The position numbers and the translations under genes are program-made. The notes beneath the pieces were generated by a model. It searched no databases. It saw nothing but the letters and a program-made list of their open reading frames with translations, and was not told where the DNA came from. From Deltaproteobacteria bacterium (GTDB lineage: Bacteria > Myxococcota > Myxococcia > Myxococcales > Anaeromyxobacteraceae), in the NCBI GenBank assembly GCA_016214955.1, contig JACRMN010000019.1, forward strand, positions 124,001-188,000: 64,000 nt of DNA, written 5' to 3'. Shown here piece by piece: positions 25,828 to 30,018 of the stretch; the stretch's first letter is position 1; the number at the start of each line of letters is the position of its first letter.

Positions 25828-26712
25828 CTACGTGCGGCGCATCGTCTGGTGCAGCTCCAGCACGATCTCGCCCTCCTTGAACACCCGGACGGTGCCCGAG
25901 GTCTGCGAGACGGTGATGGCGATGGTGCGGGTCTCGCTGGTCACGGCGGCGGCGGCCGAGTGGCGCGCCCCCAGCCCCAGCGGCACGCGGGTGTCGCGGG
26001 CCGCCGACTGCAGGTAGCGCCCGGCGGCCAGCACCACCCCGTCCTCCCGGACCACGAAGGCGCCGTCGAGCACGGCGAAGGTCTTGAGGGCGTCGCGGAT
26101 CGGCGGGTCGAGGCAGTTGCGGTCGGCCTCGGAGACGCCCTGGAACGGGTTGAGCGTGATCTGGCGGCTCTTCTCCATCACCGCGGTGGCGTCGCCGACG
26201 ACCAGGATGGTGCCGACCGGGTGGCCCTCGTACCCCTGGGCCCCGATCTCCATGGCCACGTGGATGAGGGCCTCCACCACCTGGCTGGAGAACTCCGGGG
26301 CCAGGCCGATGGCGTCCACCCGGACCTTCTCCTCCTCCTGCTCGGCGCCGATCTTCACGCGGATGAGGGTGTCGAGGCTCTTGTCCGGGCCCATGCCGGC
26401 CAGGGCCACGATGGTGTCGCCGTCGCGCACCAGCCCCTCGGAGCGGCAGGCCACCAGCGCCACCTTGATGCGCTCGACCCGGCTGTACTCGTAGGGCGGG
26501 ATCACCACCGCCAGGTAGCGGCGGGACCAGACCTCGTCGGCCACCGCCTCGTCGGTGACGGCGTAGACCAGCTTCTTCTTGAGGGGGCGGCCGCGGAGCT
26601 CGGCGGGGGAGAGGGGGTGGTCGGTGACGATGACCAGCCGGTCCACCTCGGGGCGCGAGGCCAGGGCCAGCGCCGATCGGATGAACTCGCGCTCGAGCCT
26701 GCCGTCCGCCAC
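25828..26712 (-). CDS. CdaZ-type diadenylate cyclase (pyruvate-kinase-C-like domain plus DAC domain)
   Basis: About 294 residues. The C-terminal part (about 190-280) is a DisA_N/DAC domain: DGA at 216-218 (VLDGAFVVRED), then LGLGARHSAAAAVTSET and ITVSQTSGTVRVF. The N-terminal part (about 10-122) resembles the C-terminal domain of pyruvate kinase (GDTIVALAGMGPDKSLDTLIRV). This order defines the CdaZ/DacZ class that makes c-di-AMP, mostly known from archaea. One difference: the RHR motif of DisA reads RHS (250-252), so activity needs proof. I chose GTG at 26712: it directly follows a -10 box, while the farther TTG at 26748 overlaps the -35. It is divergent from dksA. Confidence 0.75.
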   Translation of the reverse strand: MADGRLEREFIRSALALASRPEVDRLVIVTDHPLSPAELRGRPLKKKLVYAVTDEAVADEVWSRRYLAVVIPPYEYSRVERIKVALVACRSEGLVRDGDTIVALAGMGPDKSLDTLIRVKIGAEQEEEKVRVDAIGLAPEFSSQVVEALIHVAMEIGAQGYEGHPVGTILVVGDATAVMEKSRQITLNPFQGVSEADRNCLDPPIRDALKTFAVLDGAFVVREDGVVLAAGRYLQSAARDTRVPLGLGARHSAAAAVTSETRTIAITVSQTSGTVRVFKEGEIVLELHQTMRRT

Positions 26713-26718
26713 GGGCCG

Positions 26719-26748
26719 ATTCTGTCGGCAGGTTCGGCCCGAAGTCAA
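26719..26748 (-). promoter_or_regulatory. Promoter of the diadenylate cyclase gene
   Basis: On the minus strand TTGACT (26748-26743) and CAGAAT (26724-26719) are 18 bp apart. The GTG start at 26712 follows the -10 box by six bases, so the transcript would be leaderless. This also rejects the upstream TTG as a start, since it is part of the -35. Confidence 0.5.
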
Positions 26749-26774: not shown

Positions 26775-26803
26775 TTGACTTCCCGGGGGGCTGCGACTAG
26801 CTT
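26775..26803 (+). promoter_or_regulatory. Promoter of the dksA-like gene
   Basis: TTGACT (26775-26780) and TAGCTT (26798-26803) are 17 bp apart. The same pair of boxes recurs upstream of the second lysine aminomutase gene. Here a leader of about 45 bases follows, ending in GGAG before the TTG start. Confidence 0.55.
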
Positions 26804-26853: not shown

Positions 26854-27216
26854 TTGAACAAGAAGGATCAGAAGCGGTTCAAGACCATGCTCGAGGAGTC
26901 GCGGCGTCAGCTCATCGCCTCGGCGAAGAAGACCCTCGTCGAGGAGTCGAGCTTCGACACCGACGACCTCCCGGACGAGATCGACCAGGCCTCGAGCGAG
27001 TACACCCAGTCGATGATCTTCCGGCTGCGGGATCGCGAGAAGTTCCTCCTCGCCAAGATCGACAAGGCCCTGGCTCGCATCGAGTCGGGCACCTTCGGCA
27101 TCTGCGAGAAGTGCGAGGAGGAGATCTCGATGAAGAGGCTGGAGGCCCGGCCGGTCACCACCCTCTGCATCCGCTGCAAGGAGGAGCAGGAGCAGAAGGA
27201 ACGGAGCTTCGGGTAG
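26854..27216 (+). CDS. dksA: DksA/TraR family zinc-finger transcription factor
   Basis: A 120-residue DksA-like protein. An N-terminal coiled coil has a tip sequence DEIDQA, matching the D-x-x-D-x-A motif that enters the RNA polymerase secondary channel. A C4 zinc finger follows, C-x2-C-x17-C-x2-C (CEKC and CIRC). DksA potentiates ppGpp at rRNA and amino-acid promoters; the ppGpp synthase Rel is also in this window. Start TTG at 26854 was chosen because the protein then begins NKKDQKRFKTML, the usual first helix, with GGAG just upstream; an earlier ATG gives an unrelated Gly/Arg-rich extension. Confidence 0.9.
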   Translation: MNKKDQKRFKTMLEESRRQLIASAKKTLVEESSFDTDDLPDEIDQASSEYTQSMIFRLRDREKFLLAKIDKALARIESGTFGICEKCEEEISMKRLEARPVTTLCIRCKEEQEQKERSFG

Positions 27217-27263: not shown

Positions 27264-28175
27264 CTACTCCACTCTGAGCAGCTGCATCCCCACCAAGATC
27301 TGATCGCCCGGCGTGATGCGCGTCGGCTGCGTGACCTTCACGAAGGTCCCGTTGCTGCTGCCCACGTCGGAGAGCAGCACGCCGCCCTCGGAGAGGTCGA
27401 TGCGGGCGTGGCGCGCCGAGACGTACCGGTCGCCCGGGAAGCAGACGTGCCCCACCTCGCGCCCGATGCCGTTCTCGCCGAGCCGCAGCGGGAAGACCTC
27501 GCCGGTGCCGCCGCCCTCGAGGAGCTGGGTGAGGCGGGCCCGGTAGCCGGGATCGGCGGAGCCCCAGGGGCGGGCCGCGCCCTCGCTGCCCGAGGGGCGG
27601 GGCATGGGCTCGAGCCGCAGGAGCTGGCGGCCGATGCGCAGCTCGTCGCCGGGGCTCAGGGCGCGGGGCTGGCGCAGGCGCAGGAAGGTGCCGTTGACGC
27701 TGCCCAGGTCCTCGAGGAAGCCGCCGTCCTCGCGCTGCAGGAAGCGGCAGTGGCGCGGCGAGACGGTGGCGTCGTCGGGGAACTTCACCTCGGCCTGGGT
27801 GCGGCCGCAGTGGAGCGCCGCCCGGGTGATGACGAAGGTGGGGCCGGGGAGGCCGTCGTGGCGCACCGCCACCAGCTTGAGCAGCTTGGCGTCGCGCACC
27901 TCCATGGCGCCGCCGGCGCCGCCCAGGGGGGCCATGCGGCCGGGCGTGGGGGCCGGGGACGCGCGGGGCGCGGGGGTGGGCGGCGGGGAGGCCTCGCTGG
28001 CGCGGCCGCAGATGCCGCAGAATCGGGCGCCGGGCAGGAGCGGGCTCTGGCAGCCGCTGCAGACGCGCGGCGCCGGCCGCAGCCCCTGGCCGCAGGCCTG
28101 GCAGAAGGCGAAGCTGGTGTCGTTGTCCTGGCCGCAGCGCGGGCAGCGCGTGGTTCCCGCCATGGTGCACGACAT
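27264..28175 (-). CDS. FHA protein with double zinc ribbon and two FHA domains
   Basis: A 303-residue protein. Two zinc ribbons open it: CPRC...CQAC (residues about 11-29) and CSGC...CGIC (about 39-56). A Pro/Ala linker follows, then a first FHA domain with GRTQAEV, SPRHCRF and LGSVNGTF, and a second with GREVGHV, SARHARI and VGSSNGTF. Both have the canonical Gly-Arg, Ser-x-x-His and Asn-Gly residues for phosphothreonine binding. It is head-to-head with a Ser/Thr kinase gene whose product also starts with a zinc ribbon, which suggests a signalling pair. ATGs at 28175 and 28163 are both possible. A paralogue lies at 51253-52374. Confidence 0.85.
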   Translation of the reverse strand: MSCTMAGTTRCPRCGQDNDTSFAFCQACGQGLRPAPRVCSGCQSPLLPGARFCGICGRASEASPPPTPAPRASPAPTPGRMAPLGGAGGAMEVRDAKLLKLVAVRHDGLPGPTFVITRAALHCGRTQAEVKFPDDATVSPRHCRFLQREDGGFLEDLGSVNGTFLRLRQPRALSPGDELRIGRQLLRLEPMPRPSGSEGAARPWGSADPGYRARLTQLLEGGGTGEVFPLRLGENGIGREVGHVCFPGDRYVSARHARIDLSEGGVLLSDVGSSNGTFVKVTQPTRITPGDQILVGMQLLRVE

Positions 28176-28278
28176 GTACCCGCCCGCCGACGGTGGGTCA
28201 ACGGGGCGGCCGGGGCGCCCCGGGCCCGGCAGCGCCTGCCCGGAGGGCGGGCGGGTTCGGCGGGGCAGCGCTCCGCGC

Positions 28279-28284
28279 TAAGAT
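28279..28284 (+). promoter_or_regulatory. -10 box of the Ser/Thr kinase gene
   Basis: TAAGAT lies six bases before the GTG start at 28291, the same geometry as other putative leaderless genes here. No good -35 is visible. Confidence 0.35.
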
Positions 28285-28290
28285 GCGGCC

Positions 28291-30018
28291 GTGCCCACCT
28301 GCCCTGCCTGCCAGGCCGAGATCGCGACCGGCTCGCGCTTCTGCCCCTCCTGTGGCACCGCCGCCATGGCCACGTCGACGCTGGAGAGCGACCCCTGGCT
28401 CGGTCAGGTGGTGAACCGGAAGTTCCGCATCCAGGCCCTCATCGGCCAGGGCGGCATGGGGCGCGTCTACAAGGCCATGCACCTCACCCTCGATCGGCCG
28501 GTGGTGCTGAAGATGCTGCACCGCGGCCTCACCAGCGACCCCTCGGTGGTGCAGCGCTTCCACCGCGAGGCCAAGGCCGCCTCCCGCCTGGTCAACCCGC
28601 ACTCCATCCAGGTGCTCGACTTCGGCGAGGCCGAGGACGGCACGCTCTTCATGGCCATGGAGTTCCTGGGCGGCAGGGACCTCTCGGCCCTGCTGGCGAC
28701 CGGCGGCCCCATGCCCGAGGCCCGCATCGTCCGCATCGGCGCCCAGATCCTGGAGGCGCTGGGGGAGGCGCACGCCCACGGGATCATCCACCGCGACCTG
28801 AAGCCCGAGAACGTGATGGTGGAGGACCGGCGCAACGACGCCGACCACGTCACCGTCCTCGACTTCGGCATCGCCAAGATCAGCGACCCCGGGCCGGGGG
28901 AGGGGAAGCTGACGCAGGCCGGCCTGGTCTGCGGGACGCCGCAGTACATGAGCCCCGAGCAGGCCCGCGGCCGCGAGCTGGACGCCCGCACCGACCTGTA
29001 CTCGACGGGCGTCATCCTCTACCAGATGGCCACCGCCGCGCTGCCCTTCGACTCCGACACGCCGGTGGGCTTCCTCACCAAGCACATCAGCGAGCCGCCG
29101 GTGCCGCTGCGCCAGCGCCACCCGCGCCTGTCCATCTCGCCGGCCCTGGAGGCGCTCATCGGGCGCGCGCTGGCCAAGGACCGGGAGCACCGGCCCCCGA
29201 GCGCCGACGCCATGCGCGCCGAGCTGCTGGCCTGCCTGGCCGCCTCCGGCCCGGCCGCGACGCCCGCCCCCCAGCGCACCGAGGTCCTGGCGACGCCGCC
29301 GGCGGGCGCACCCCGGCCGCCGGAGCCGGCGCCAGTGCCAGCGCCGCCCCGGGCGGCGTCCGAGCGGACGGCGCGCCCTGCGCAGGAGCAGCCGGCGCCT
29401 GGTCCCAGGAAGCGGAGCGCGGCGGTGCCGGTGGTCATCGCGGCTGCGATCGCAGCCGCGGGCGGGGGTGCCTGGTGGGCGACGCGGGCGCCCGAGCCGC
29501 CCGCCCCGACCGCGGCCACGACCCCGACCCCAACCGCGACCCCGACCCCGACCTCGACCCAGACCCCGACCTCGACCCAGACCCCGACCGCGGCTCCGAC
29601 CGCGACAACGACGCCGACCCCGACCGCGGCCCCGACCCCGACCTCGGCGCCGCCTCCGCCCGAGCCGGTCGCTGCTGGTGAACCTCCTCTCCCACTCCCC
29701 CGCGCCAGCGGGGGAGTGGGGCAGGGTGAGGGGGCCCGGGCGGCGCCCGCCCGTCCCTCGCGCAACCCGCAGAAGGCCCGCGCCCTCTACGAGAAGGCCG
29801 AGGCGAGGCGGCGCGAGATGGACGCCGCCGGAGCGGTGGCGCTGTACCTCGAGGCCGAGCAGGCCGACCCGCAGCTCACCGAGCTGCACAAGAAGCTGGG
29901 CCAGTGCTACCAGCTCCTCGGCGACATCCCGCGGGCGCGCGAGCGGTACCGGAAGTACCTGGCCACCGGGCCGGCCGACGCCGACGCGGTCCGCTCCACG
30001 CTCGACCTGCTGAGGTGA
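28291..30018 (+). CDS. Membrane Ser/Thr protein kinase with zinc ribbon, Thr-Pro linker and TPR
   Basis: A 575-residue protein. Residues 4-21 form a zinc ribbon (CPAC...CPSC). The Hanks-type kinase domain spans about 44-315, with the Gly-loop at 51-58, Lys74, HRDLKPEN at 167-174, DFG at 191-193 and the APE-like SPE at 221-223; all catalytic residues are present. A single membrane helix lies near 378-396. A Thr-Pro repeat (403-452) and a short segment encoded by an inserted palindrome (464-482) lead to TPR-like helices at 493-575. So the kinase is cytoplasmic and the TPR probably periplasmic. The gene is one base from lytS, suggesting an operon. Confidence 0.9.
   Translation: MPTCPACQAEIATGSRFCPSCGTAAMATSTLESDPWLGQVVNRKFRIQALIGQGGMGRVYKAMHLTLDRPVVLKMLHRGLTSDPSVVQRFHREAKAASRLVNPHSIQVLDFGEAEDGTLFMAMEFLGGRDLSALLATGGPMPEARIVRIGAQILEALGEAHAHGIIHRDLKPENVMVEDRRNDADHVTVLDFGIAKISDPGPGEGKLTQAGLVCGTPQYMSPEQARGRELDARTDLYSTGVILYQMATAALPFDSDTPVGFLTKHISEPPVPLRQRHPRLSISPALEALIGRALAKDREHRPPSADAMRAELLACLAASGPAATPAPQRTEVLATPPAGAPRPPEPAPVPAPPRAASERTARPAQEQPAPGPRKRSAAVPVVIAAAIAAAGGGAWWATRAPEPPAPTAATTPTPTATPTPTSTQTPTSTQTPTAAPTATTTPTPTAAPTPTSAPPPPEPVAAGEPPLPLPRASGGVGQGEGARAAPARPSRNPQKARALYEKAEARRREMDAAGAVALYLEAEQADPQLTELHKKLGQCYQLLGDIPRARERYRKYLATGPADADAVRSTLDLLR
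29515..29650 (+). repeat. Tandem ACCCCGACC-type repeat encoding the Thr-Pro linker
   Basis: Imperfect 6- and 12-bp units (CCGACC, ACCCAGACCCCG) repeat about 20 times, encoding alternating Thr-Pro with some Ala and Gln. The frame is kept. This is a likely slippage site for length variation in the linker. Confidence 0.75.
29691..29720. repeat. Palindromic repeat element inside the kinase gene
   Basis: CCCACTCCCCCGC (29691-29703) and GCGGGGGAGTGGG (29708-29720) are perfect 13-bp inverted arms around GCCA, flanked by CTCCTCT and CAGGGTGAGGGG. This layout resembles the interspersed palindromic repeats of many GC-rich genomes, which are normally intergenic. Here it is translated in frame as a Pro-then-Gly-rich linker (residues 464-482). 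Confidence 0.6.

Follow-up and report, generated by a model that had tools for sequence, protein, structure and literature searches.

The gene at positions 25828–26712 of the window (the whole stretch of 64,000 nucleotides that was analysed) encodes, in all likelihood, a working diadenylate cyclase of the DacZ class; catalysis is inferred from family, fold, residue conservation and genome content. The predicted product of the enzyme is very probably c-di-AMP. The protein adds one more ordinary example to an enzyme class that is already known, and DacZ proteins of Myxococcales have been on record since 2019 (Braun et al., PMC6741144). The reading frame lies on the minus strand, starts with GTG at position 26712 and comprises 294 codons; it was found as originally predicted, with a divergent neighbour of the DksA family. 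The gene and its protein features are:

25828–26712, minus strand: dacZ, DacZ/CdaZ-type diadenylate cyclase of 294 amino acids, GTG start (open reading frame call with domain and profile matches)
26341–26712, minus strand: N-terminal PK_C-like domain, residues 1–124 (PF21755, E=2.5e-10; AlphaFold2; Foldseek; profile match)
25867–26244, minus strand: DAC catalytic domain, residues 157–282 (PF02457, E=8.3e-19; Foldseek matches to CdaM/CdaA/DisA, prob 1.00)
26059–26067, minus strand: DGA motif, D216-G217-A218 (D and G in 65/65 and A in 64/65 DacZ)
25957–25965, minus strand: RHS motif, R250-H251-S252, at the RHR position of CdaA/DisA (R in 65/65 and H in 64/65 DacZ)

The nearest family model in an NCBIfam search was that of haloarchaeal DacZ (E=7.4e-48). 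The protein scored 163.2 bits against the corresponding equivalog model, NF041371, which has a curated cut-off of 430, and is thus placed outside the haloarchaeal equivalog. A CdaA/DacA assignment is at odds with the RHS motif and with a TIGR00159 score of 27.2 bits (cut-off 188.8), and a DisA assignment with an NF010009 score of 18.3 bits (cut-off 201); an HhH domain was not found in the Pfam search. The remaining NCBIfam matches, to CdaM, CdaA, CdaS and DisA models, were weak. Close relatives (67–86% identity) came from metagenome-assembled genomes of Myxococcales, one of them labelled Anaeromyxobacter sp.

The domain composition was assessed by Pfam searches, structure prediction and structural comparison. 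The C-terminal part scored 67.8 bits against the DAC model PF02457 (cut-off 27), and residues 8–124 scored 40.5 bits against PF21755 (DacZ_P, described as a 'probable sensor domain'; cut-off 27.4). Pfam PK_C itself stayed under its cut-off (E=0.0064), and DACZ_N (PF19294) yielded 15.7 bits at a curated cut-off of 24. The full-length AlphaFold2 model, built from the 65 locus proteins, had a mean pLDDT of 82.8 and a pTM of only 0.55, so that it is uncertain how the two domains sit relative to each other; its best PDB matches were CdaM, CdaA and DisA (Foldseek, prob 1.00). The N-terminal domain modelled alone reached a pLDDT of 91.5 and a pTM of 0.87, and 50 of the 50 PDB matches listed for it by Foldseek were pyruvate kinases (E about 1e-5 to 1e-4). 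A profile search also matched residues 396–497, that is the C-terminal domain, of pyruvate kinase 3eoe (E 0.016). The pyruvate kinase matches confirm the CdaZ architecture, in which a PK_C-like domain is followed by DAC; together with PF02457, PF21755 and the AlphaFold2 model they show that the original prediction was right in both class and architecture. A PK_C-like N-terminal fold of DacZ had already been proposed (PMC6741144).

The closest known relatives are the haloarchaeal DacZ proteins (Haloferax volcanii HVO_1660; Haladaptatus), which share the PK_C-like N-terminal fold followed by DAC, the DGA motif, and an RH whose next residue is not Arg. Identity to haloarchaeal DacZ was 31% over 72% of the protein. 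The two differ in the N-terminal domain (Pfam DacZ_P here, not DACZ_N), in the sequence VSQ here versus SE there, and in gene order, as dacZ is head-to-head with dksA here whereas halobacterial dacZ is in an operon with mscS2 (PMC6741144). CdaA/DacA has the DAC catalytic fold, DGA and RH in common with the dacZ product, but carries membrane helices and RHR where the latter has a PK_C-like domain and RHS. Other Myxococcales DacZ proteins belong to the same family and phylum; the family with most of the Myxococcia genomes has RHA, and Anaeromyxobacteraceae have RHS or RHT. The tree of Braun et al. 2019 contains a DacZ-related bacterial branch that includes M. virescens, M. stipitatus and Stigmatella, and proteins of Myxococcales, Planctomycetales and Gemmatimonadales were counted as DacZ-related bacterial sequences (PMC6741144). 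Our DacZ tree contained only two archaeal rows, both very distant, and an archaeal origin of DacZ cannot be read from it. The literature searched contained no assayed enzyme of this bacterial DacZ branch.

The significance of Ser in place of the third residue of RHR was evaluated in an alignment of 65 DacZ proteins from loci fetched across Myxococcota (55 Myxococcia loci and 10 from other classes). The core residues D216, G217, R250 and S269 were conserved in 65/65 and H251 in 64/65, which indicates that the site is under selection. The third position was Ala in 42 of the proteins, Ser in 14, Thr in 7, Asn in 1, Val in 1 and Arg in none. Ser is the second most frequent state at this position, after Ala. 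Within the same family (Anaeromyxobacteraceae) Ser was found in 12 and Thr in 2 DacZ proteins; 39 of the 41 DacZ of other Myxococcia had Ala. Two plasmid-borne DacZ proteins of Haladaptatus have RHH, i.e., His in the third position. When the third residue was replaced by Arg in single-residue variants, the scores against the CdaA, CdaM and CdaS profiles of NCBIfam rose by ∼4 bits, with no gain against the haloarchaeal DacZ profile, for which Met scored best among the third-position residues tried. RHS thus departs from the motif of CdaA, DisA, CdaM and CdaS; judged from these sequences, however, the third Arg is characteristic of CdaA/DisA-type DACs, not of DACs in general, and does not belong to the active site of DacZ. 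A second active-site difference from CdaA is Q270: where the VSE motif of CdaA has Glu, Gln is present in 61/65 Myxococcota DacZ; Haladaptatus DacZ has SE and does not share this change. Among the CdaA-type loci of Myxococcota, RHR was present in 24/27 and RHL in three. Three genomes of one family in the same order (loci L015, L020 and L029; family f5) show only a CdaA-type DAC, with the motif RHL (GTRHLAA) rather than RHR, which means that the third Arg has also been lost in one CdaA lineage.

The original prediction had read the altered motif as a sign of altered chemistry or of a sensor function. The DacZ of H. volcanii makes c-di-AMP in vitro, is ATP-specific and Mn-dependent, and is essential (PMC6741144); its third residue was inferred from the haloarchaeal profile and the two Haladaptatus proteins. 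Since none of the DacZ proteins read has the third Arg and cyclase activity is proven for the H. volcanii enzyme, a missing Arg does not predict lost activity, and the suggestion of altered chemistry or a sensor was not supported (Arg in 0/65 Myxococcota DacZ). The sensor or dead-enzyme interpretation of RHS was rejected, as the third residue was never Arg in the DacZ proteins compared. DacZ proteins should not be termed degenerate for the missing third Arg, and a false lead is thereby removed. On wider grounds, too, it is very unlikely that the protein is a catalytically dead DAC fold serving as a sensor through the binding of ATP or c-di-AMP: the five residues named above are essentially invariant over the phylum, the haloarchaeal family with its proven cyclase equally does without the third Arg, and nothing else would make the ligand, as this is the only DAC in the genome. 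What such a sensor has in its favour is the lack of the third Arg together with VSQ instead of VSE, both relative to CdaA, and the finding that M. tuberculosis DacA/DisA with AAA in place of RHR neither binds ATP nor is active (PMC3328451), although all three residues are altered in that mutant. The two active-site positions unlike CdaA could also be taken to indicate a cyclase that yields another cyclic dinucleotide or uses other chemistry. We consider this even less probable, because the third position varies normally inside DacZ, the H. volcanii enzyme is specific for ATP and makes c-di-AMP (PMC6741144), and the sequence gives no sign of another product.

In a working diadenylate cyclase, two DAC domains, each with bound ATP, would be arranged face to face, like those of DisA and CdaA, and would convert two ATP into c-di-AMP with the help of a divalent metal, which is Mn2+ for the relative from H. 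volcanii. The probable role of the PK_C-like N-terminal domain is to set the activity in response to a metabolite or nucleotide that it senses. One DAC copy was found in the source genome (95.6% complete), and the dacZ product would thus be the only c-di-AMP source found there. At least one DAC was present in 168 of 195 Myxococcota genomes; several genomes of the same family gave two DAC matches, of which the strong one was CdaA-type and the weaker one DacZ-type. DacZ emerges as the usual c-di-AMP synthase in Myxococcia.

Profile searches of the source genome revealed a PgpH-like phosphodiesterase with 7TMR-HDED, 7TM and HD domains, a probable candidate for the c-di-AMP phosphodiesterase that the original prediction proposed to look for. 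The gene for this membrane HD phosphodiesterase is at L107:956-3406 on the minus strand (source genome G000, contig C19). The PgpH-type enzyme is the likely degrading partner of the dacZ product, and breakdown would probably proceed through it and possibly through a DHH-DHHA1 enzyme; RecJ and a second protein with DHH-DHHA1 are encoded as well. The 7TM domain family of the PgpH-type enzyme was detected in 38 of the 41 genomes searched; the enzyme is not a DacZ-specific partner, since CdaA-bearing relatives have it too. Potassium or osmotic control is a likely use of c-di-AMP, and a candidate target is an encoded cation/proton antiporter that carries TrkA_C. The ydaO riboswitch, a PstA-type receptor and KdpD had no match in the source genome, and a search for TrkA_N gave only weak matches. 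The lack of the former three weighs against the main reading, as do the Q270 change, the lack of an assayed enzyme of this branch in the literature searched and the presence of the PgpH-type enzyme alongside CdaA. Phyla with mainly short KdpD, Myxococcota included, mostly contain diadenylate cyclases (2024 paper, PMC11018627). No c-di-AMP study in genetically tractable myxobacteria was found in the literature searches; a Myxococcus paper (mBio 2022) searched for c-di-AMP measurements mentioned c-di-AMP only in the title of a reference.

The intergenic region between dacZ and the divergent dksA-family gene was compared over 14 loci of the same family (the window, L036-L047 and L004). The features of the region and of the neighbouring gene are:

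26719–26724, minus strand: predicted dacZ -10 element CAGAAT, separated from the GTG start by 6 nt (leaderless geometry)
26743–26748, minus strand: predicted dacZ -35 element TTGACT (counterpart in 14/14 family loci)
26775–26780, plus strand: predicted dksA -35 element TTGACT (TTGAC[AT] aligned in 14/14 family loci)
26798–26803, plus strand: predicted dksA -10 element TAGCTT (promoter scan and family alignment)
26854–27216, plus strand: dksA-family gene (DksA_N and C4 zinc finger), probable TTG start at 26854 (Pfam/NCBIfam matches, locus comparison)

The position of the dksA -35 element (TTGACA/T) was invariant in all 14 loci. The dacZ -35 element, 28–33 nt from the start, was TTGACT in 9, TTTACT in 3 and TGGACA in 2, and a sigma-70-like dacZ promoter scoring at least 8/12 was present in 10/14 loci, with 0.33 expected. 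A -10-like element ended 4–9 nt before the dacZ start in 12/14 (loose pattern) or 8/14 (stricter pattern). A Shine-Dalgarno core was found for dacZ in 0/14 family loci (region 26713–26748 and equivalents) and for dksA in 11/14. The lack of this core, together with a -10-like element so close to the start codon, suggests from the sequence that dacZ mRNA is leaderless in Anaeromyxobacteraceae.

Of the 55 Myxococcia loci, 53 had dksA head-to-head with dacZ; the arrangement occurred in none of the 10 loci of other classes. Where both flanks were available (38 Myxococcia loci), dksA was near dacZ in 36, and the other neighbours in the window were near it in 0 to 28. Such strong conservation of the dacZ neighbourhood in Myxococcia makes some link between dacZ and dksA possible, and the original prediction had seen in the nearly identical -35 boxes a hint of linked stress control. 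The hint is a weak one. The boxes are indeed both TTGACT and are kept in the family; however, TTGACT is the sigma-70 consensus, and identical boxes of this kind point to two housekeeping-type promoters rather than a shared regulatory site. Among the 14 family loci the two -35 boxes were 26 to 112 bp apart, and no conserved sequence or shared operator was seen between them. A shared operator was rejected on account of this variable spacing and the absence of anything conserved in between.

An extension of the main explanation, in which the cyclase is active and its gene is paired divergently with dksA because c-di-AMP and the stringent response are regulated jointly, would account for dksA being the most conserved neighbour tested and for both promoters being conserved in Anaeromyxobacteraceae. 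We regard it as doubtful, given the consensus nature and variable spacing of the boxes, the occurrence of sigma-70-like dacZ promoters at chance level in other Myxococcia (6/41, 4.8 expected), the absence of the pair from the other classes and a second DksA in the genome with a slightly higher score. Likewise, it seems rather improbable that the class-wide pairing is the sign of a true connection in Myxococcia between c-di-AMP (osmotic/potassium) signalling and the control of transcription through DksA. We found no earlier report of the class-wide pairing in the literature searched. The pairing is of modest added value beyond the identity of the enzyme and is the less expected part of the analysis; dacZ/dksA is a concrete, testable gene pair in genetically tractable myxobacteria.

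The source genome encodes two DksA-family proteins with near-equal scores (114.1 and 112.2 bits) that narrowly miss the TIGR02420 cut-off of 115.5, besides two weaker DksA-family proteins; the genes of the former lie at G000:C4:245106-245435 (L109) and at 26854–27216 of the window. The next-best neighbours of dacZ were an FHA/zinc-ribbon gene (28/38 loci) and a Ser/Thr kinase-like gene (21/38), where both counts may include paralogues. The frequent presence of these genes near dacZ suggests that the conserved block may exceed the dacZ/dksA pair. In the window, zinc-ribbon/FHA and Ser/Thr kinase-like genes lie beside dksA at 27264–30018.
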